Part shown: piece by piece, positions 18,190 to 34,069 of the stretch | Position numbering within the stretch: the first letter of the stretch is position 1 | How the letters are laid out: each line of letters starts with the position of its first letter | Assembly: GCA_003818505.1 (NCBI GenBank) | Contig: RPRI01000039.1 | Location: forward strand, 1 to 36,106 | Length of the DNA stretch: 36,106 bases | Direction of reading: 5' to 3' | Source of the DNA: Desulfobacteraceae bacterium | Lineage (GTDB): Bacteria; Desulfobacterota; Desulfobacteria; Desulfobacterales; RPRI01 | The notes under the pieces: model-generated | The model's input: only the letters and a program-made list of their open reading frames with translations | What the model was told of the DNA's origin: nothing | Database searches by the model: none | Translations under genes and position numbers: made by a program

Positions 18190-19578
18190 ATGAAAATGTT
18201 CAGAATACTTATAGTTTTTTTACTACTCTTTTGCCTGTGTGACAAGGTCGGAGCATCAACCGGTAACAGGAAAGCGCTGGACCGGATACCGGATGTTCTT
18301 GTATCTTTTGACACCGATGGCGGCGCCGAATATGCGATAGTGGTTGAGAAAGAGAGCCAGCAGTTGTTTGTGTATTCATTTGACGGGGTATTCAGAGAGG
18401 CTCACCGTTTTAAATGTTCAACAGGTAAGAACGACGGGCCCAAATCCGTTCTGGGAGACAGCAGGACACCTGAAGGAATATATTATTCGGACAGGGAATA
18501 TGAAAAGAAAGACCTTTCGGCTATATACGGTTCAAGAGCCTTCCCTGTTGATTATCCGAATGTACTTGACCGAATAGCGGGAAAAACGGGAAATTCAATA
18601 TGGCTGCACGGTACGGATAAGCCCAAGAAGCCAAAAGACACTAATGGTTGTGTTGTGCTTGATGATCAGGACATTGATACGCTTTCCAAATATATAAGGT
18701 TCAACAGGACTCCGGTTATCATAGCGGAAAAGCTCAATTATGTTCCAGCAGATTCGATGAGGAGAACCGGGGAATCGATACGCGAATTTCTTTACGGATG
18801 GGTTGATTCGATCAAAAACGGCACATACCAGGAATATGTAAAATTTTATGACTATGACTATGTTCCGGATATTTCCTGGTGGTCGGACTGGAATAACGAA
18901 AGGAAAAAATTATACTCGGAGAAAAAGTCGTTTAATGTTGTTCCCGAAAAGATATCAATTGTCGGTCATAACCGTATATACTCCGTGCTGTTTGAACAGA
19001 CGGTAAAAACCGGCAAGAATGAATCTTTTGCCGGCATCAAAAAATTATTTCTTTCTGAAAGAGACGGAGAATTCAGGATCATAGGTGAAGAATATCTGCC
19101 TACAGATGAGGACCGGAAGGCCGGTTCTGCCAGGAATCCTCTTATTGCGGCGTTCGGAAATATGAACAATATTATTGCACAGAAAAAGCAACCCGTGGAA
19201 GAAAGAAAGAAAATTACGAAGAGAGACAGTGCTTCTGCGAAAAAGCAGGAAATAAGAGAAACGGTTGACGGATGGCTTAATGCATGGTCTTCGCGTAACA
19301 TTAATGAGTATGGGGATTATTACGCAATAGATTTCAGATCACAGGGCATGAACAGGGAAGAATGGCTGAAACATAAGGATTATATTAACGGTAAATATGA
19401 CTATATCGATGTTTCGATAGAAAAACAGGCCATAAAACCGGGAAGCGATTTCAGCCATGTATCATTTATACAGATATATAAATCAAGCGGATTGAAGAAT
19501 GTCGGATTTAAAAAACTTGTATTAAAGCTTGAGGAAGGCAAGTGGAAAATCTTTCGCGAAAGCTGGAAAAAGCGATAA
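18190..19578 (+). CDS. Csd6/Pgp2-like L,D-transpeptidase-fold protein with two NTF2-like domains
   Basis: This 462-residue exported protein has a signal peptide of about 22 residues. The YkuD/L,D-transpeptidase fold runs from about 45 to 180: KCSTGKNDGPKSVLGDSRTP, then His140 in SIWLHGT and the catalytic Cys154 in DTNGCVVL. Two regions that look like NTF2-type cone domains follow, about 195-305 (IREFLYGWVDSIKNGTYQEY) and about 355-462 (IRETVDGWLNAWSSRNINEY). H. pylori Csd6 and C. jejuni Pgp2 have the same fold plus one NTF2-like domain and trim peptidoglycan tetrapeptides as L,D-carboxypeptidases. Here a second NTF2-like domain appears to be added. The downstream M99 peptidase and bactofilin strengthen this reading over a generic YafK-type transpeptidase. 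The gene overlaps the next one by 37 bases. Confidence 0.85.
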   Translation: MKMFRILIVFLLLFCLCDKVGASTGNRKALDRIPDVLVSFDTDGGAEYAIVVEKESQQLFVYSFDGVFREAHRFKCSTGKNDGPKSVLGDSRTPEGIYYSDREYEKKDLSAIYGSRAFPVDYPNVLDRIAGKTGNSIWLHGTDKPKKPKDTNGCVVLDDQDIDTLSKYIRFNRTPVIIAEKLNYVPADSMRRTGESIREFLYGWVDSIKNGTYQEYVKFYDYDYVPDISWWSDWNNERKKLYSEKKSFNVVPEKISIVGHNRIYSVLFEQTVKTGKNESFAGIKKLFLSERDGEFRIIGEEYLPTDEDRKAGSARNPLIAAFGNMNNIIAQKKQPVEERKKITKRDSASAKKQEIRETVDGWLNAWSSRNINEYGDYYAIDFRSQGMNREEWLKHKDYINGKYDYIDVSIEKQAIKPGSDFSHVSFIQIYKSSGLKNVGFKKLVLKLEEGKWKIFRESWKKR

Positions 19579-20345
19579 AACACCTGGCATTTAAAGCAAC
19601 GCCTGGAGAAATCGGATACCATATTCTCGTTCTGGTAGGGGAGAATGGAAAGATCAGGCATGTCAGAATTTTAAAGGGATTGGTGATTTCCCTTATCCTG
19701 GTTCAGATTTTGTTGTTTTGCGCAGCGGCATATGTTTTTTATGCAGGCATGAAGCATGCGGGAGAGAACAGCGCATTAAGAAACACTCTGGAAATTTCGC
19801 AGAAGAATTATCTGGCCATGAGGGATGAAAAGGATTTGCTGACGGCCCGTCTCGTGCTGGCTGAATCGATGGTAAAAGTAGGGGGAGGGACATATAAGGC
19901 AGTTCCTGAGGTTGATACATCCGAAAAACCCGGTGGTTTGCAGACGGAACCGGCGTCCCGGGGACCTGTGAAGGTTTCGATAGATAATTTGAAGGTTTTT
20001 CATGAATCCAAAACGAATGCATTAAATATCCAGTTCGATTTGAAGAATGCCGGCACGGATGTCCAATATGTTACGGGGTATGCCTTTGTCATACTGAAGG
20101 AGAATAATACTGACCAGAACAGCTGGCTTTGCGTGCCGAATGTGCCGCTGGTTTCCAAAAGACCTTCCGAGATTAATAAGGGACGCCGTTTTTCCATATC
20201 AAAGTTCAAACAAGTATTCCTTACAACGAGTATTAAATCCAGTCCGCAGCGCTTCAAGGCCGCCACAGTGTTTGTATTTTCAATCAACGGCGAACTTATC
20301 CTGGAAAAAGATTTTCCCGTTGAAATACAAACAGGCGGAACCTGA
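19542..20345 (+). CDS. Single-pass membrane protein in the cell-shape cluster
   Basis: I do not recognise a named family for this 267-residue protein. It has a short cytoplasmic N-terminus (about 45 residues, containing ILVLVGENGKIRHVRI) and one transmembrane helix (about 46-69, GLVISLILVQILLFCAAAYV). A short coiled coil follows (about 75-112, NYLAMRDEKDLLTARLVLAE), then a probable beta-sandwich domain (about 135-267, VSIDNLKVFHESKTNALNIQ) facing the periplasm. The start is GTG at 19542 with GAGGAAGG upstream; no later start would keep the helix. It overlaps both neighbours (37 bases with the Csd6-like gene and 1 base with the M99 gene), so it is tightly coupled to them. It could tether the peptidoglycan hydrolases to the bactofilin, which is inference from topology and context. 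Confidence 0.8.
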   Translation: MENLSRKLEKAIKHLAFKATPGEIGYHILVLVGENGKIRHVRILKGLVISLILVQILLFCAAAYVFYAGMKHAGENSALRNTLEISQKNYLAMRDEKDLLTARLVLAESMVKVGGGTYKAVPEVDTSEKPGGLQTEPASRGPVKVSIDNLKVFHESKTNALNIQFDLKNAGTDVQYVTGYAFVILKENNTDQNSWLCVPNVPLVSKRPSEINKGRRFSISKFKQVFLTTSIKSSPQRFKAATVFVFSINGELILEKDFPVEIQTGGT

Positions 20346-22153
20346 TGAAAAAGGTGATACATATAAAGGCTGGCTTTCTGTTTATCTGTTTTTTCATATT
20401 ATGCCTGCTGCTTTATCCGTCTTTCTCTTTTGCCCAGAAGAAGGTCCATTCGGTTTACTTCGAGGGTTCCGATTATGAGCTTCATATCTACAGGATTTAC
20501 GGAAAGGAGCCGGGTAAAACACTGCTATTGATAGGCGGGATACAGGGTGATGAGCCGGGCGGATTTTTGTCTGCCGATCATTATGCGGATATCAGTCTTG
20601 CAAGGGGAAACCTGATAGTTGTGCCCAGAGCAAATTTTCAGTCGATTATCCTTAACAGGCGCAAGATAAATGAGGATATGAACAGGAAATTTGCAGACGA
20701 TCCTCCCGATAATTATGAGAAAAAAGTCGTTGAAATACTAAAAAAACTGATATCGGAAAGCGATTGTCTTCTGAACCTTCATGACGGGTCGGGCTTTTAT
20801 TCGGATAAATGGGAAGGTCCCGACCGGAACCCGAAACGTTTCGGTCAATCCATAATAGCCGATTCCGAAACATACACGGTTGAAGAAACAGGACGCATGA
20901 TAGAGCTGGGTAATATGGCAAGAGTTGTTGCAGACGAAATTAACAGGGATATTCAGGATCCCGGCCTTCACTTCCATTTCAATAACCACAAAACAAAAGA
21001 AGATGTTTCGATTCATAAGGAGCAGAGAAAATCGGCCACTTATTACGCGCTCTATTCCTGCGGGATACCGGCATACGGCATCGAGACGAGCAAATCATTA
21101 TCCATGGAAGATAAAGTCAGGCACCATAATCTTGCCATAAATTCATTTATGAAACTCTTTGACATTGTCCCTGAGATGCCCGGAATGAATCTCGATCCTC
21201 CCCAGCTTAAATATCTTGTTGTTTCTGTGAATGATTCCACACCCGTAGCAGTTAGGGATAACGAGATTTTATATGTGAATCAGGGTGATTCCGTTATGGT
21301 GACACATATAGAGGCAAATTATGAAAGGGGTCTTACCGCAGATGTCGTCGGACACGGTTCAATAAGCGATCTTCGAAGAAAATTCATGATAAACGAGCCG
21401 ACTAAAATTATTGTCAGAAAGGACTATTTCCCATGCGGCAGCATCAGACTTGAGATTGATGAAAAGAGCGAGGAAGCAGTTTCCGGTGTCTCCTCAAAAA
21501 CGGATATAAGAAGATACGAGCTTTCAAAATTATTATTCAAAACAAGAGTCAACGGAGCTGAAAGGATAGATGAAAGCGGGAGCAGTATCAAGCTTGTAAA
21601 AGGCGATAGATTTGAAATATTGGATATTATTTCAGGCCGCAGGGATCGTTCGAATCTCGTTGTAAATTTCAAAGGATATATTTGTAATTCAAGAAACAAT
21701 ACTGGTGAAGACAGGGGCTATGTAATAAACACCGGCAAGGATTTGCTCAGCCGCTATTCTCTGGATAGAAAAGGTAATTCATACCAGATTCTTGTTTCAA
21801 ACAAAAATAAAACGGTAGGCAATTTGTTTGTCGACCTTGCGGATCCGTGCTTGAAGTATGTGATTATAAAAAAAGGAGAAGATGGGCCAGGCTGCTTCTA
21901 TCCCGGGGATACTATAGATGTCGAAAAGGGAAAAGCTGTAAAGCTCATTGATATAAATACAAATGTAGAAGGAAATTCAGGGGTTGTGGCTTTTATAACC
22001 GGTGCAGAATCAATTGCGGGTAATATAAATATGGATGAATCTGTAATGATATCTGACATGATAGGCGCGGAAGGCAAGATACCGAGTGGATGCAGGATCG
22101 AGATCAGGCTTAATGATATTCTGCTGGGAAGTATTTACCTGCGTCTTATTTAG
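20345..22153 (+). CDS. Csd4/Pgp1-like M99 D,L-carboxypeptidase with extended C-terminus
   Basis: This 602-residue exported protein has a signal peptide ending at SFSFA (about residue 30). The zinc-carboxypeptidase domain (about 35-290) has LLIGGIQGDEPGGF, giving Gln67 and Glu70 where most M14 enzymes have His and Glu. It also has the third ligand His146 in LLNLHDGSGF, a DMNRKF substrate-binding segment (111-116), and Glu247 in AYGIETSK as the probable general base. A Gln zinc ligand in GGIQGDE is the hallmark of family M99, whose members H. pylori Csd4 and C. jejuni Pgp1 trim peptidoglycan tripeptides and set helical shape. The rest (about 300-602) seems to hold repeated beta domains (QYLVVSVNDSTPVAV-like segments) beyond the size of Csd4 (438 residues). 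It starts at the last base of the preceding stop. Confidence 0.87.
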   Translation: MKKVIHIKAGFLFICFFILCLLLYPSFSFAQKKVHSVYFEGSDYELHIYRIYGKEPGKTLLLIGGIQGDEPGGFLSADHYADISLARGNLIVVPRANFQSIILNRRKINEDMNRKFADDPPDNYEKKVVEILKKLISESDCLLNLHDGSGFYSDKWEGPDRNPKRFGQSIIADSETYTVEETGRMIELGNMARVVADEINRDIQDPGLHFHFNNHKTKEDVSIHKEQRKSATYYALYSCGIPAYGIETSKSLSMEDKVRHHNLAINSFMKLFDIVPEMPGMNLDPPQLKYLVVSVNDSTPVAVRDNEILYVNQGDSVMVTHIEANYERGLTADVVGHGSISDLRRKFMINEPTKIIVRKDYFPCGSIRLEIDEKSEEAVSGVSSKTDIRRYELSKLLFKTRVNGAERIDESGSSIKLVKGDRFEILDIISGRRDRSNLVVNFKGYICNSRNNTGEDRGYVINTGKDLLSRYSLDRKGNSYQILVSNKNKTVGNLFVDLADPCLKYVIIKKGEDGPGCFYPGDTIDVEKGKAVKLIDINTNVEGNSGVVAFITGAESIAGNINMDESVMISDMIGAEGKIPSGCRIEIRLNDILLGSIYLRLI

Positions 22154-22201
22154 GAGACGTTACAAATTAAAAATTGACGCTATTCCGTTCGGTCGAAGAT
22201 T

Positions 22202-22220
22202 CCCTGCAGCTTGCTGCGGG
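22202..22220. other. GC-rich hairpin before the bactofilin gene
   Basis: CCCTGCAGC-TT-GCTGCGGG forms an 8-pair stem with one bulge in the 94-base gap before the bactofilin gene. It could be an RNA processing site or a weak attenuator. No T-run follows. Confidence 0.35.
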
Positions 22221-22247
22221 TAGCTAAAAAGCGGCTTAGGAGTTGTC

Positions 22248-22637
22248 GTGGGAAATAGAAATTCCAACATATCGATTTTTGATAATGAACTAAGGCTTAA
22301 AGGAGCCTTTTCGTTTAGGGGCAGGCTTATAATTAAAGGCTCTTTTGAAGGATCAATAACAGGGGAGAATCTTATTATTGCTGAAGAAGGGGTTGTTCTT
22401 GCCGAAATAAATGCCGAGAATGTCACGATAGGGGGACAGTTTGAGGGATATATTACAGCAGTGAATGAGGTGGTGATTCTGTCGACCGGGATTTGTTCCG
22501 GAACGGTTTCATGTAAAAGCCTCATTGTTGAAACAGGTGGGCTTCTGAACGGCGATATAAAATGCATAAAAAATATTGATACGGAATATGAAAACGAGCC
22601 GGTTTCATACGGAAATGATGAGCCAGGTTATAGTTGA
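22248..22637 (+). CDS. Bactofilin (CcmA-like polymer-forming cytoskeletal protein)
   Basis: This short bactofilin has 129 residues. The central region (about 15-108) repeats a beta-helix pattern with regularly spaced Gly and hydrophobic residues: LRLKGAFSFRGRLIIKGSFE, GSITGENLIIAEEGVVLAEI and GLLNGDIKC. Bactofilins polymerise without nucleotide on the cytoplasmic face of the inner membrane. In H. pylori the bactofilin CcmA works with Csd-type hydrolases to shape the cell. The start is GTG at 22248 with AGGAG 7 bases upstream. It is the last gene of the cluster that starts at 18190. Confidence 0.92.
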   Translation: MGNRNSNISIFDNELRLKGAFSFRGRLIIKGSFEGSITGENLIIAEEGVVLAEINAENVTIGGQFEGYITAVNEVVILSTGICSGTVSCKSLIVETGGLLNGDIKCIKNIDTEYENEPVSYGNDEPGYS

Positions 22638-28665: not shown

Positions 28666-29115
28666 TTACTTCTCTCTGCTAAATTTTGCTTTGAGCTTAA
28701 GCAAAGAATCCTGCAGAGGTGGTCGCAGAAGGTTTTTGTGTGTTGTAATTAGGTTGTCCTCTTCAGCCTCGAACAGACAATTAACGATATCATCAATTAA
28801 TTTAGCGTCAAGACTTCCCTCGACACTTATATCTTTATTCGTGTCGATAACTTTTGGCCGAAATTCATATATTTCGTGCAACTGAACCCATGTATCCAAT
28901 TTAAAAAACGTTTTGTTTCCTGGAATAAAGAACAAACTCTGTTTTTTGATACATCCGGGTGTTGAAGGCCTGTTTTTCTTTTGGGAGGTGGCTTTTACGA
29001 AAAGATAGGGGTCTTTTTTATCGGGTGTATTTAAAAGAATGAGATATTTTTTGCCGATGAAACCGTTTTTGAAAACAAGCTGTCTGTGATGATAGATAGC
29101 TCCCCGGATTTGCAA
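28666..29115 (-). CDS. Putative toxin partner of the Panacea-domain gene
   Basis: This 149-residue soluble protein starts MQIRGAIYHHRQLVFKNGFI, followed by GKKYLILLNTPDKKDPYLF, a Lys-rich loop, SLFFIPGNKTFFKLDTWVQL and a polar helical tail. The strand pattern (YLILLN, FFIPG, TWVQLHEIYEF) recalls PemK/MazF-like small beta-barrel RNases, but I cannot confirm it. The start is TTG at 29115, immediately after the preceding TGA, with CGGAG 9 bases upstream. This abutting arrangement with a Panacea gene is the main reason to propose a toxin role. Panacea antitoxins are known to pair with many unrelated toxins. Confidence 0.65.
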   Translation of the reverse strand: MQIRGAIYHHRQLVFKNGFIGKKYLILLNTPDKKDPYLFVKATSQKKNRPSTPGCIKKQSLFFIPGNKTFFKLDTWVQLHEIYEFRPKVIDTNKDISVEGSLDAKLIDDIVNCLFEAEEDNLITTHKNLLRPPLQDSLLKLKAKFSREK

Positions 29116-29676
29116 TCAGCTTGCTCCGAATATGCTGTACATCTCTGAGCGTTCTTGCAGCCGTTCCTTGGCCTCATCATGAGGAAGGCTTGCGATATCG
29201 CTGTCAATGGCAAGCATATAATCGATCTTTTGAAACTTACCCTTCTCTTTGATGGTTTTGTCCCACGGCTCATTTTCTAAATGGGAGGACTCGACCATGG
29301 CATCAGCCTTGGCATCTTTGAAAATAAAAGAGATATCCTCTAAACATTTCATTTCACGTTTAGAAAAATACTGGTTGTTGAATTTCCTTTTAGACCGGAC
29401 CTGCTGAAATTCTCCTTCTTTTGAAAGATCGTGAACAGAGTCTTTCATATCCGGCTTCATATTGCCGGTGAGTTCTTCAAAAAGATCTTTGGGAACCGGT
29501 CCCATATCCCATGCAAAATAGTCCAGCCCCGTGACGGATCTGCCCGTCTGCTTAAAGTGTGTAAAGTCTAAAAAATATAGAAGTTTCAGCAACTTTGTTT
29601 TGCCGCAACAATTTGTATGATCGGCAAAATAAATAATTGTATTTATTAGCTTTTCTCTGTGATGTGTTATAATCAT
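29116..29676 (-). CDS. Panacea-domain (DUF4065/SocA-like) protein, putative antitoxin
   Basis: This 186-residue protein has the family pattern KTKLLKLLYFLDFTHFKQTG, RSVTGLDYFAWDMGPVPKDL and a later SHLENEPWDKTIKEKG. The Panacea domain (formerly DUF4065) is an antitoxin module that can neutralise many toxin types, and related SocA is a proteolysis adaptor in Caulobacter. The gene comes first in a two-gene unit with a putative toxin. Upstream, -35 TTGACT and -10 GATAAT place transcription at about the A of this ATG, and no Shine-Dalgarno is seen at a normal distance. It may be translated from a leaderless message. Confidence 0.8.
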   Translation of the reverse strand: MIITHHREKLINTIIYFADHTNCCGKTKLLKLLYFLDFTHFKQTGRSVTGLDYFAWDMGPVPKDLFEELTGNMKPDMKDSVHDLSKEGEFQQVRSKRKFNNQYFSKREMKCLEDISFIFKDAKADAMVESSHLENEPWDKTIKEKGKFQKIDYMLAIDSDIASLPHDEAKERLQERSEMYSIFGAS

Positions 29677-30532: not shown

Positions 30533-30660
30533 TAGCCGAAATGGCGATAAGCGCGGAAAGACTCGAACGATTCCAGGATTGTCTTCTGGGCTGACCGTTG
30601 GTGATGCACTGAGAAAAAAATTGGAGTTCAAACCATCAGGAAGATTTGATCCATCAAGAA
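30529..30660 (+). pseudogene. ADP-ribosylglycohydrolase remnant, frameshifted and truncated
   Basis: An ATG at 30529 overlaps the phosphatase stop (ATGA) and reads MIAEMAISAERLERFQDCLL before a TGA at 30592. Shifting one base, the text continues LTVGDALRKKLEFKPSGRFD. Together this matches the start of ADP-ribosylglycohydrolases, whose N-termini read RFxGCLLGLAVGDALGTTLE and FKPPG. One base is lost at the GGC-TGA junction. The rest of the gene, about 250 residues including the metal-binding residues, is gone and an EEP gene starts at 30675. Confidence 0.72.
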
Positions 30661-30674
30661 GGGGAGAGATACGC

Positions 30675-31475
30675 ATGGCGATGAAAACCAGAATAATCCA
30701 GTGGAATATCTCATTTAACTGCACTGCCAATAAGATCGCAGATTATATTTCGCAAAGCATTTCGGGGCCGACAATTGTTAATTTGCAGGAAGTTACAGAA
30801 AAAGCTTATCGTGAAATTTCATCAATACTGATGACATCCGATAAAGCATACAGTATTGATCTGCGCAGACCCGGCAGATATGAAGGTAAGAATCGAACAA
30901 TGGGGGTTGCTACTTTCGTGTTCGGAGGAAAAATTGCACATTACGACCTGATTTATCGCAGCGTTTTCCCAGAGAGGACTTTGTTTTCTACGATTCAATT
31001 TAAAAAAAGAAAAATATCAGTACTCAATTTTCATTCACTTACCGGCGTGGACTATAAAAAAGCAAAGTCCAGCAACTTCGCATCTATCGCAGACTTTATT
31101 GCAGAAAAAGGGCAAAAACTAGATTTTTTTACCTGTGATGCCAATGAACCAAAGACCGATGCACTTGACGATGACGAAGTCGAATTTGCGGATAATCGAG
31201 ACAAAGGATATAATGCAAGCCTGATATTCGGCAAAAATAAAGTTCATGCATTGCGTGACGCTTACAAAATTCATATTCAAAAATCGAAACTCCCTATACG
31301 GACCAATCCTTTGGCTACATCCCATGTGAACGGCGGGAGCCATAGGCGGTATGATTTCATTTATTGCTCCAAAGAATGGGATGTTCAGCATGTTAGCTAC
31401 CCCTACAAAGAATCAGTCAGCGCATCGAGTGATCATTCAATAGTTATCGGGGATTTTTTACTTGATGCTGTTTAA
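30675..31475 (+). CDS. Endonuclease/exonuclease/phosphatase (EEP) family protein 1
   Basis: This 266-residue protein has the EEP fold motifs in order: RIIQWNISF, the metal-binding Glu in IVNLQEV, an HSLTG segment, FFTCDANEPK (Asp and Asn of the active site), RRYDFIYCSKEW and the final SSDHSIVIGDF. All catalytic positions appear intact, so it should be an active Mg2+-dependent phosphoesterase acting on DNA, RNA or a small phosphate ester. The frame is open back to 30579, but that part is the ADP-ribosylglycohydrolase remnant. The ATG at 30675 with GGGGAGAG upstream is the proper start. There is no signal peptide, so it is cytoplasmic. Confidence 0.86.
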   Translation: MAMKTRIIQWNISFNCTANKIADYISQSISGPTIVNLQEVTEKAYREISSILMTSDKAYSIDLRRPGRYEGKNRTMGVATFVFGGKIAHYDLIYRSVFPERTLFSTIQFKKRKISVLNFHSLTGVDYKKAKSSNFASIADFIAEKGQKLDFFTCDANEPKTDALDDDEVEFADNRDKGYNASLIFGKNKVHALRDAYKIHIQKSKLPIRTNPLATSHVNGGSHRRYDFIYCSKEWDVQHVSYPYKESVSASSDHSIVIGDFLLDAV

Positions 31476-32815: not shown

Positions 32816-34069
32816 ATGAGCATTCGGACCGTAAATCCTGCATTCGTCGTTCCAGGTGTGTCGGTCGACACGCTGCAGCGCTTACCCCGTGTCCACACGA
32901 AGTTCGACGAACGCTTTCTTCAGGATCTTTTGGCGGATCATCCGGAACTTCTTCCCGTTCGCGATATCCGCGACGATGTTGGTTCGTTGCTCTGCATCGG
33001 GCGCGAAGTTGCCGTGTCGAGCGGAGCCATCGACAATCTGTATTTGTCCACGCAGGGCTACCCTGTAATCGTTGAAACAAAATTGTGGCGCAATCCTCAG
33101 GCTCGTCGTGAGGTCTTGTCCCAAACACTCGACTACATCAAGGAAGTAGTCCAAAAAGATTTTGAATGGTTCGCGCAACAGTGGAAGCTTTTCAGCCAGC
33201 AGCATGACAACCAAACAGGGGACTTACCCAGTCGTCTCAATGACCTTTCCGATGATGAGATTGACGAACAATTTATCGTAGACCGTGTTAACCGCGCCCT
33301 TTCGCGCGGAGATGTCGTCGCGATCATCGTGGGCGACGGCATCGAAACACGCCTTCAAGAATTGGTTGCTCACCTTTGTAGGGATTCTTCCCATTTGCGG
33401 TATTCCCTTGCGTTGGTCGAATTGGCATGCTACCAGTTCGAGAATCAGGATCGCGATGGAATTATCGTTGTACCGAGAATCATCCACGATGTGGAACCAG
33501 TTCAGCGCGCGTATGTGCGCGTCGATCTTGCGAACGAACTTGAAAGACAGCTAACCGTCACACCAGTCGTCGTGACGGACCGCGATGGCCCCAAGCCGCC
33601 CCGCGTAAACCTGAACGAAGATGATTTCCTTGACGCTATTGAGCAGTCTGCTGGCCGCCAATGCCGCGACCAAATTTACCAGTTCTACAGCGATCTTATT
33701 GACTCATTTAACTTGGAACCGGAATTTAAAGCGGCGGCAGTGATGCTTAAAGTACCACATCCGGATGGGGATGGGATGGGTACAAGTATCTTGGCCCTCG
33801 AAAAACAGGGGCGCATTTACAACACCAAACACATGAGTCATCAATTAAAAAGGTGGGGCCTTAGCCTAACGGTGATTGAGCAGATTACGTCAGACTACTG
33901 GACTGCTTTGCACAACATTGACTTGCGGTTTAATCCGGCTGGGATCGTCCATCTGGCTCCCCGACAGTTTCTTCCGTTTGCGGAGATTGTTGACAAATTG
34001 TCTGATATCAAAGATCGCGTCGGGAAAGTTGTTGCCGAGATCAGATCCGCGTACGAAAATGCCCGCTAA
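32816..34069 (+). CDS. PD-(D/E)XK-like nuclease-fold protein
   Basis: This 417-residue protein has an N-terminal region FLQDLLADHPELLPV and then AIDNLYLSTQGYPVIVETKL, which has the spaced Asp and E-x-K of a PD-(D/E)XK nuclease core (about residues 80-105). NPQARREVLSQTLDYI follows, as in DUF91/NucS-like and restriction-like proteins. The C-terminal half is helical and of unknown role. Base composition is clearly more GC-rich than its AT-rich neighbours, which points to recent transfer. It has no strong Shine-Dalgarno. A hairpin terminator lies 11 bases after the stop. It could be a defence-related nuclease, which is inferred from context only. Confidence 0.75.
   Translation: MSIRTVNPAFVVPGVSVDTLQRLPRVHTKFDERFLQDLLADHPELLPVRDIRDDVGSLLCIGREVAVSSGAIDNLYLSTQGYPVIVETKLWRNPQARREVLSQTLDYIKEVVQKDFEWFAQQWKLFSQQHDNQTGDLPSRLNDLSDDEIDEQFIVDRVNRALSRGDVVAIIVGDGIETRLQELVAHLCRDSSHLRYSLALVELACYQFENQDRDGIIVVPRIIHDVEPVQRAYVRVDLANELERQLTVTPVVVTDRDGPKPPRVNLNEDDFLDAIEQSAGRQCRDQIYQFYSDLIDSFNLEPEFKAAAVMLKVPHPDGDGMGTSILALEKQGRIYNTKHMSHQLKRWGLSLTVIEQITSDYWTALHNIDLRFNPAGIVHLAPRQFLPFAEIVDKLSDIKDRVGKVVAEIRSAYENAR

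Follow-up and report, generated by a model that had tools for sequence, protein, structure and literature searches.

The window, by which we mean the whole 36,106-nucleotide stretch of contig RPRI01000039.1 from a Desulfobacteraceae bacterium of the sulfate-reducer type (GenBank assembly GCA_003818505.1), holds a real and conserved bactofilin-linked carboxypeptidase module. Its four genes, whose products are called P1 to P4 here, encode two secreted enzymes of the peptidoglycan-trimming kind, an undescribed single-pass membrane protein and a bactofilin. We read the locus, with a probability of about 0.58, as a bactofilin-guided peptidoglycan-trimming module in which P2 serves as the adaptor for two periplasmic carboxypeptidases. 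A sequence-only reading of the window had presented the same genes as a Helicobacter-like cell-shape operon. Its layout of four same-strand genes is accurate, with P1 and P2 overlapping by 37 bases, P2 and P3 by 1 base, and a gap of 94 bases before P4, and so are the gene identities, as the profile matches given below confirm.

18190..19578, plus strand: gene 1 (P1), secreted YkuD L,D-carboxypeptidase-type protein with two NTF2-like domains; 462 amino acids, ATG start
19542..20345, plus strand: gene 2 (P2), undescribed single-pass inner-membrane protein; 267 amino acids, GTG start
20345..22153, plus strand: gene 3 (P3), secreted M99 D,L-carboxypeptidase-type protein; 602 amino acids, ATG start
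22248..22637, plus strand: gene 4 (P4), bactofilin; 129 amino acids, GTG start

In the proposed mechanism, P4 would polymerise beneath the inner membrane. P2 would span that membrane once, dock on the bactofilin by a short cytoplasmic beta-hairpin, cross part of the periplasm as a coiled coil, and hold or position P1 and P3 with an immunoglobulin (Ig)-like sandwich. As an L,D-carboxypeptidase P1 would take D-alanine (D-Ala) off tetrapeptides, and P3, as a D,L-carboxypeptidase, would next take meso-diaminopimelate (meso-Dap) off the tripeptides; stem peptides would be shortened and withdrawn from cross-linking only at sites of bactofilin and P2. The two enzyme activities, and recruitment through a hairpin as described for the peptidase LmdC, are carried over by analogy from published relatives, while binding by P2 on both sides, the confinement of trimming to particular sites and its effect on cell shape are our inference.

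The gene order is conserved, whereas a lack of such conservation would have counted against the sequence-only reading by its own terms. Throughout, two genes are called near when they share a strand and both fall in the fetched stretch, which reaches about 6 kb to either side if the contig is long enough. M99 proteins occur in 19 of 59 relatives, and 15 of the 20 stretches fetched from relatives hold the divergent type of M99 to which P3 belongs. Across these 15 loci from the genus and order, P1, P2 and P4 are each present in 14, with P4 fused to the M99 protein in one case and upstream in another; one locus ends at a contig edge (L040) and one is without P1 (L028). Among named genomes, the best 80 of 372 P3 relatives, a set that leans to close kin and in which 27 loci have short flanks, show P1-P2-P3-P4 in order at 47 loci, followed by P2-P3-P4 (8), P1-P2-P3 (8), P1-P3 (5), P3-P4 (2) and other patterns (10).

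Further afield, in an even sample of 395 Desulfobacterota genomes, M99 occurs in 73. The 55 M99 loci scored comprise 52 divergent loci that were fetched and in which P3 was detected, together with three added by hand (G000, G028, G031), leaving out two weak M99 matches of the 54 (L200, L201) and two genomes below the cut-off that were unfetched (G059, G099). P1 stands in the stretch at 49 of the 55 and P2, separate or fused, at 44. The four-gene set of the earlier reading needs qualifying, in that a bactofilin lies near M99 at 6 of 6 loci of the window's own taxonomic order and at 12 of 49 outside it. Beyond the order the core is genes 1-2-3, and the arrangement seen most often in the phylum is P1-P2-P3 with P4 missing from the stretch (26 of 52 loci, including 5 whose flanks are short). 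As a control, none of the 11 fetched loci with a solitary M99 gene has P1, P2 or P4 nearby (22 such loci found; two of the 11 fetched have short flanks).

P2 matches no Pfam family over a cut-off. For 15 aligned rows the best E-value among the 25 of 28 families listed is 0.0048, and no M23 peptidase domain is among those 25; P2 is predicted to have an Ig-like sandwich instead. The AlphaFold2 (AF2) model, made from 47 rows with a predicted local distance difference test (pLDDT) score of 83.4, comprises a short N-terminal helix, a hairpin, a long helix, a low-confidence linker and an eight-strand sandwich, and the hydrophobic maximum begins at residue 47. Over 126 distinct segments the hairpin consensus is approximately W-T-I-L-I-V-G-D-x-G-K-V-R-S-F, the turn glycine being present in 107.

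19620..19670, plus strand: P2 predicted cytoplasmic beta-hairpin, residues 27-43 (AF2 strands 27-32 and 38-43)
19674..19877, plus strand: P2 membrane helix and coiled coil, residues 45-112 (a single helix in the AF2 model)
19974..20318, plus strand: P2 periplasmic Ig-like beta-sandwich, residues 145-259 (AF2 model)

A fold search with P2 returned generic Ig-like matches and nothing specific. Its ranks 1-4, subunits of ammonia and methane monooxygenases, were set aside at template-modelling (TM) scores of 0.25-0.28 and a root-mean-square deviation (rmsd) above 30. DUF6776, a neighbour of bactofilins in Gammaproteobacteria, was likewise discarded, being absent from the 25 of 28 families listed for the 15 rows; the literature search found no paper on DUF6776 together with bactofilin. 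Weak P2-like matches (8.6e-4 to 4.1e-5) lie near bactofilins at three loci (L213, L214, L222) in genomes without a P2 match, and the adaptor family may, on these sequence matches, be wider than the P2 profile detects.

The neighbourhoods in which these genes occur centre on P2. It is paired with P4, without P1 or P3 in the stretch, in eight genomes of one family (f74; loci L129, L132-L136, L141 and L143), some of the stretches lying on short contigs; none of these genomes has an M99 match. P1-P2-P4 occurs without M99 at three loci (L137, L138, L140), and an M23 peptidase gene precedes P4 and P2 at another (L142); the M23 labels of loci rest on our own motif rather than a profile. The outer domain of P2 is fused to the C-terminus of P1 at 7 loci (6 distinct proteins), and the P1 portion of these fusions has one NTF2 domain, its profile being matched only at the ends, at about 3-178 and 295-411. 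In two clusters (L157 and L171, met a second time as L095 and L094), an LmdC-type M23 peptidase and then a bactofilin come after P1-P2-P3, so that each cluster combines the two module types.

Genomes with P2 mostly hold a bactofilin. From genome lists compiled by hand, a bactofilin is present in 60 of 68 P2 genomes (E<=1e-3) and in 185 of 327 others (p 4e-7, kinship ignored). At E<=1e-7, a threshold chosen after the matches had been seen and which removes 11 of the 68 genomes (5 with and 6 without bactofilin), the counts become 55 of 57 and 190 of 338 (p 2e-10, kinship again ignored). Within the 54 genomes carrying divergent M99, a bactofilin is found in 43 of the 44 with P2 near or fused and in 5 of the 10 without, two of which have P2 elsewhere (p 4e-4, on the same terms).

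P4 itself matches Bactofilin PF04519 at 1.1e-21 (77.3 bits, cut-off 27.9) and, judged by eye, is without a signal peptide; it is among four bactofilin domains found in three places in the window's genome. In a tree of 67 hand-chosen bactofilin rows, with the L142 bactofilin, near both M23 and P2, put in the M23 group, the P2-linked sequences fall in three places (26, 5 and 3 rows), which needs 3 label changes, 2 of them forced by starred branches. The tree is poorly resolved over its 101 columns, and one gain with two losses is possible. A YkuD protein without an NTF2 match also stands beside a bactofilin at L217 (3498-4558), where neither P2 nor M99 was found, possibly a further bactofilin-enzyme pairing.

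Among the closest described parallels to P2 is LmdC. In Rhodospirillum, bactofilin is reported to recruit this M23 peptidase through a cytoplasmic hairpin that precedes its membrane helix, and changes in the hairpin abolished enrichment at the inner curve (PMC10945521). Like P2 in its predicted form, LmdC of Hyphomonas and Rhodospirillum is bitopic, is encoded next to a bactofilin and combines a hairpin on the cytoplasmic side with a membrane helix and a coiled coil. It differs in having its own M23 enzyme built in, whereas P2 has a non-enzymatic sandwich and separate secreted carboxypeptidases. LmdC-type M23 proteins in the phylum have a bactofilin in the same locus for 12 of 13 rows scored (plus-strand rows only), and their hairpins resemble that of P2 by eye (for example TIMVV, a turn and a short strand). 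Sequence kinship of the hairpins is only suggestive; we claim a likeness of layout, in which P2 is not an LmdC and may, as modelled, work in a similar manner. Csd5 of Helicobacter is also reported to pass the membrane once with a short cytoplasmic tail, with an SH3 domain where P2 has an Ig-like sandwich (PMC9448923).

We propose P2 as the adaptor because its predicted hairpin before the membrane helix repeats the layout of LmdC, because it pairs with the enzymes without bactofilin and with bactofilin without the enzymes, because its outer domain is fused to P1 and its genomes mostly hold a bactofilin, and because P2-linked bactofilins fall in three places in the tree. The sequence-only reading had named the membrane protein as the likely link, a suggestion that these patterns of co-occurrence and fusion, along with the predicted architecture, favour. 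Such a link would be one way for bacteria to confine the trimming of their wall to chosen places.

Several results weigh against this reading. A bactofilin lies in the stretch at only 18 of the 55 phylum M99 loci, while P1-P3 occurs without P2 at 5 and M99 alone at 6. Eight of the 68 P2 genomes are without a bactofilin match, six of these with weak P2 matches (1.3e-6 to 8.8e-4) and the two with strong P2 being 67% and 78% complete, and the co-occurrence tests are uncorrected for phylogeny. Confidence in the P2 model is lower at the hairpin, with pLDDT about 56-72 in those blocks. With a profile of the LmdC hairpin plus membrane segment, none of 133 P2s is recovered at E<=0.01, and P2s are separated from 164 membrane controls with an area under the curve of 0.714, or 0.565 for the hairpin alone; of 150 column shuffles, 4 in one comparison and 8 in the other equal the hhalign scores between P2 and LmdC.

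P1 is a member of the Bd1075/Csd6/Pgp2 group of L,D-carboxypeptidases by sequence, and removal of D-Ala from tetrapeptides is its predicted activity. It matches Cds6_C at 3.3e-24 and YkuD at 1.3e-17, both over the cut-offs, and its nearest sequences in the PDB are Bd1075 (7o21, 1.6e-38), Csd6 (4xzz, 7e-19) and Pgp2 (6xj6, 3.3e-17). The AF2 model (36 rows, pLDDT 89.3) has a YkuD domain followed by two NTF2-like domains, and Foldseek places Bd1075, Csd6 and Pgp2 at ranks 1-6, with 7o21 at 4.9e-23. The sequence-only reading, which had called gene 1 Csd6/Pgp2-like, was correct as to the group; the closest solved relative is Bd1075 of Bdellovibrio rather than Csd6 of Helicobacter. Nor is P1 a plain YafK protein, an identity we rejected at 32.6 bits against a cut-off of 365 in the NCBIfam LdtF/DpaA/YafK model.

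18607..18651, plus strand: P1 catalytic stretch, His140-Gly141 to Cys154; the residue two after the cysteine (Cys+2) is Val
18739..19098, plus strand: P1 first NTF2-like domain, about residues 184-303 (AF2 elements)
19219..19572, plus strand: P1 C-terminal NTF2-like domain, residues 344-461 (alignment to 7o21)

Arginine at Cys+2 is typical of most transpeptidases. His140, Gly141 and Cys154 of P1 are invariant in 36 of 36 rows, in which the Cys+2 residue is Val in 22, Ala in 11, Thr in 3 and Arg in none. Among 118 distinct proteins the motif could be read in 115, and none of these has Arg at the position (six have Glu). Csd6 aligns to P1 through residues 46-279; the first NTF2-like domain is missing from the fused P1-P2 forms elsewhere. 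The N-terminal dimerisation domain of Csd6 and Pgp2 was not found in P1, whose YkuD match begins at residue 48, after a signal helix (the signal peptide judged by eye) and a disordered stretch.

The likeness to Bd1075 covers the YkuD domain with a C-terminal NTF2 domain, Val at Cys+2, a hydrolase-type active site and, as reported for the Bdellovibrio protein (PMC8938487), a short N-terminus without the Csd6/Pgp2 dimerisation domain; P1 differs in its additional NTF2 domain and in sharing an operon with P2, a bactofilin and an enzyme of the M99 family. According to the same report, Bd1075 Y274A localised only partially and a truncation lacking Trp303 did not localise, and neither restored curvature; Trp303 was reportedly not found in other LD-carboxypeptidases (PMC8938487). 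By alignment to 7o21, with numbers counted by hand from the stated catalytic residues, the equivalent of Tyr274 in P1 is Tyr430 (36 of 36 rows) and that of Trp303 is Trp459 (31 of 36), so that the tryptophan is common in the P1 family, contrary to the Bdellovibrio specificity described. P1 keeps both equivalents, and we count them in favour of bactofilin-guided trimming.

P3 matches Peptidase_M99 (PF17033) at 2.9e-36 (125.7 bits, cut-off 27) and the Csd4 structure 4q6m at 1.2e-27. The sequence-only reading had named an aspartoacylase-like enzyme as the alternative for gene 3, which we discarded with AstE_AspA at 4.2e-7 against 2.9e-36 for M99. Csd4 is reported to bind metal through Gln46, Glu49 and His128, with Glu222 as general base (PMC4220969), and the corresponding Gln67, Glu70, His146 and Glu247 of P3 are kept in 14 of 14 rows. 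When 124 distinct proteins were roughly scanned for the motifs, 108 showed all three patterns, 13 were without the Glu pattern and 3 without the Gln-Glu pattern. P3 matches M99_C weakly (20.3 bits, cut-off 27) and M99_m not at all; for comparison, a solitary M99 reaches 88.3 bits with M99_C and 20.9 with M99_m (cut-off 27.5). We regard P3 as a divergent M99 type because a solitary protein elsewhere in the order (L026) matches the family far better, at 1e-80 against 2.9e-36. Two genomes (G016, loci L025/L026; G022, loci L028/L029) hold an M99 protein of each type, divergent and solitary (Csd4-like), and the types are therefore paralogues. In an Olavius symbiont assembly, M99 and bactofilin form one uninterrupted open reading frame (L072, 6977-9163, the same genome as L025, 6732-8918), an odd arrangement that joins a periplasmic enzyme to a cytoplasmic polymer.

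The enzyme pair and bactofilin recall Csd4, Csd6 and CcmA of Helicobacter, and the enzyme pair also Pgp1 and Pgp2 of Campylobacter. Csd6, Pgp2 and Bd1075 are reported to shorten tetrapeptides to tripeptides, and Csd4 and Pgp1 to shorten tripeptides to dipeptides. As the sequence-only reading had it, the module might be a Helicobacter-like programme that makes the cell curved or helical. Each of Csd4, Csd6, Pgp1, Pgp2 and Bd1075 is reportedly needed for the curvature or helicity of its host, and Csd4 homologues of >50% similarity have been reported only in curved and helical organisms. However, P3 is of the divergent type, apart from the better-matching solitary one; bactofilin modules are reported to reduce curvature in Rhodospirillum and, in Hyphomonas, to take part in the growth of stalk and bud (PMC10945521); and 7 of 9 congeners, some of them incomplete, have no M99 match. 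Most carriers of the genes are uncultured assemblies. We hold such a programme to be possible, though on balance we doubt it, and the label of a bactofilin-linked carboxypeptidase module that includes a new adaptor-like protein, P2, fits the locus better than that of a Helicobacter helical-shape operon. Nor does the novelty that the sequence-only reading attached to such genes outside Campylobacterota survive, as work from 2012 had already pointed to Csd4/Pgp1 homologues among delta-Proteobacteria (PMC3310789, PMC3310797) and Bd1075 was reported in 2022 (PMC8938487). Our literature search, with most subscription journals and bioRxiv outside its range, found no paper on an operon of M99, P1, P2 and bactofilin.

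Alternatively, the enzyme trio may be the true unit, with P2 a membrane tether, chaperone or activator of the two carboxypeptidases and the bactofilin kept beside it by local synteny. No arrangement is more frequent in the phylum than the trio with P4 missing from the stretch, the outer domain of P2 is fused to P1, and at several Desulfobacterales loci (L128, L044, L045, L048, L053, L091) the operon lies shortly after ruvB, so that synteny is strong there. Yet P2-P4 pairs occur without the enzymes, most P2 genomes hold a bactofilin, and P2 is paired with bactofilins from three places in the tree, one group lying upstream instead of downstream, and we consider the trio an unlikely explanation of the whole. 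A role in envelope maintenance that leaves shape unaffected, with P1 a DpaA/YafK-like enzyme freeing peptidoglycan-tied proteins and P3 recycling stem peptides, can draw on the weak LdtF/DpaA/YafK match of P1 (4.1e-8, at the bit score given above) and its Cys+2 residue of the hydrolase kind, but is improbable, since the NTF2 domain, the Foldseek ranks and the pairing with M99 fit a pair of L,D- and then D,L-carboxypeptidases.

Returning to P2 as a bactofilin adaptor, it may found a stand-alone family of such adaptors, through which secreted carboxypeptidases akin to Bd1075/Csd6 and to Csd4 would be connected to the bactofilin skeleton, an extension that we offer tentatively and rate somewhat short of even odds. 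If true, P2 would be the missing physical link from cytoskeleton to stem-peptide trimming, and it could be transferable, since it is paired with bactofilins from three places in the tree. With both enzymes set beside a bactofilin and a single membrane protein in one conserved operon, the question of localisation becomes testable.

P2 occurs in 5 of 10 genomes of the window's genus, one of which (G005; L128, 5950-7119) has a decayed copy in the same place, from the ruvB side to the CYTH/rplM side. There P1 and P3 are gone, P2 is interrupted by an inserted inverted repeat and the bactofilin is open. We had considered the ending of this P2 before its sandwich as evidence of modularity and rejected it, the inverted repeat and the remnant pointing to decay.

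In the window the operon is flanked by ruvB on one side and by a minus-strand CYTH gene and then rplM on the other, and the closest named record to the window is a Desulfobacterales assembly. Two further features belong to the layout.

19542..19578, plus strand: 37-base overlap of P1 and P2, in which the conserved C-terminus of P1 contains the GTG start of P2
22202..22220, plus strand: palindrome CCCTGCAGCTTGCTGCGGG, resembling repetitive extragenic palindromic (REP) elements, in the gap between P3 and P4

The sequence GAGGAAGG stands at 19531-19538, 3 bases 5' of the GTG of P2. With starts taken as the first possible ones, the 37-base overlap recurs in 36 of 59 named loci in which both genes were measured. 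The palindrome occurs at 29 places in its own genome at <=2 mismatches, with a reversed control at 0, and is probably a genome-wide element rather than part of the mechanism. Counts of promoter-like sites (6, 11.3 expected) and terminator-like sites (7, 4.2 expected) were uninformative.

Elsewhere in the window, a SocA/Panacea antitoxin-like protein (29119-29676) is followed directly on the minus strand by a 149-amino-acid protein with no Pfam match at 0.001 (the pair spanning 28669-29676), possibly a toxin-antitoxin pair. Proteins of 298 and 417 amino acids, encoded at 30579-31475 and 32816-34069, likewise have no Pfam match at that threshold.

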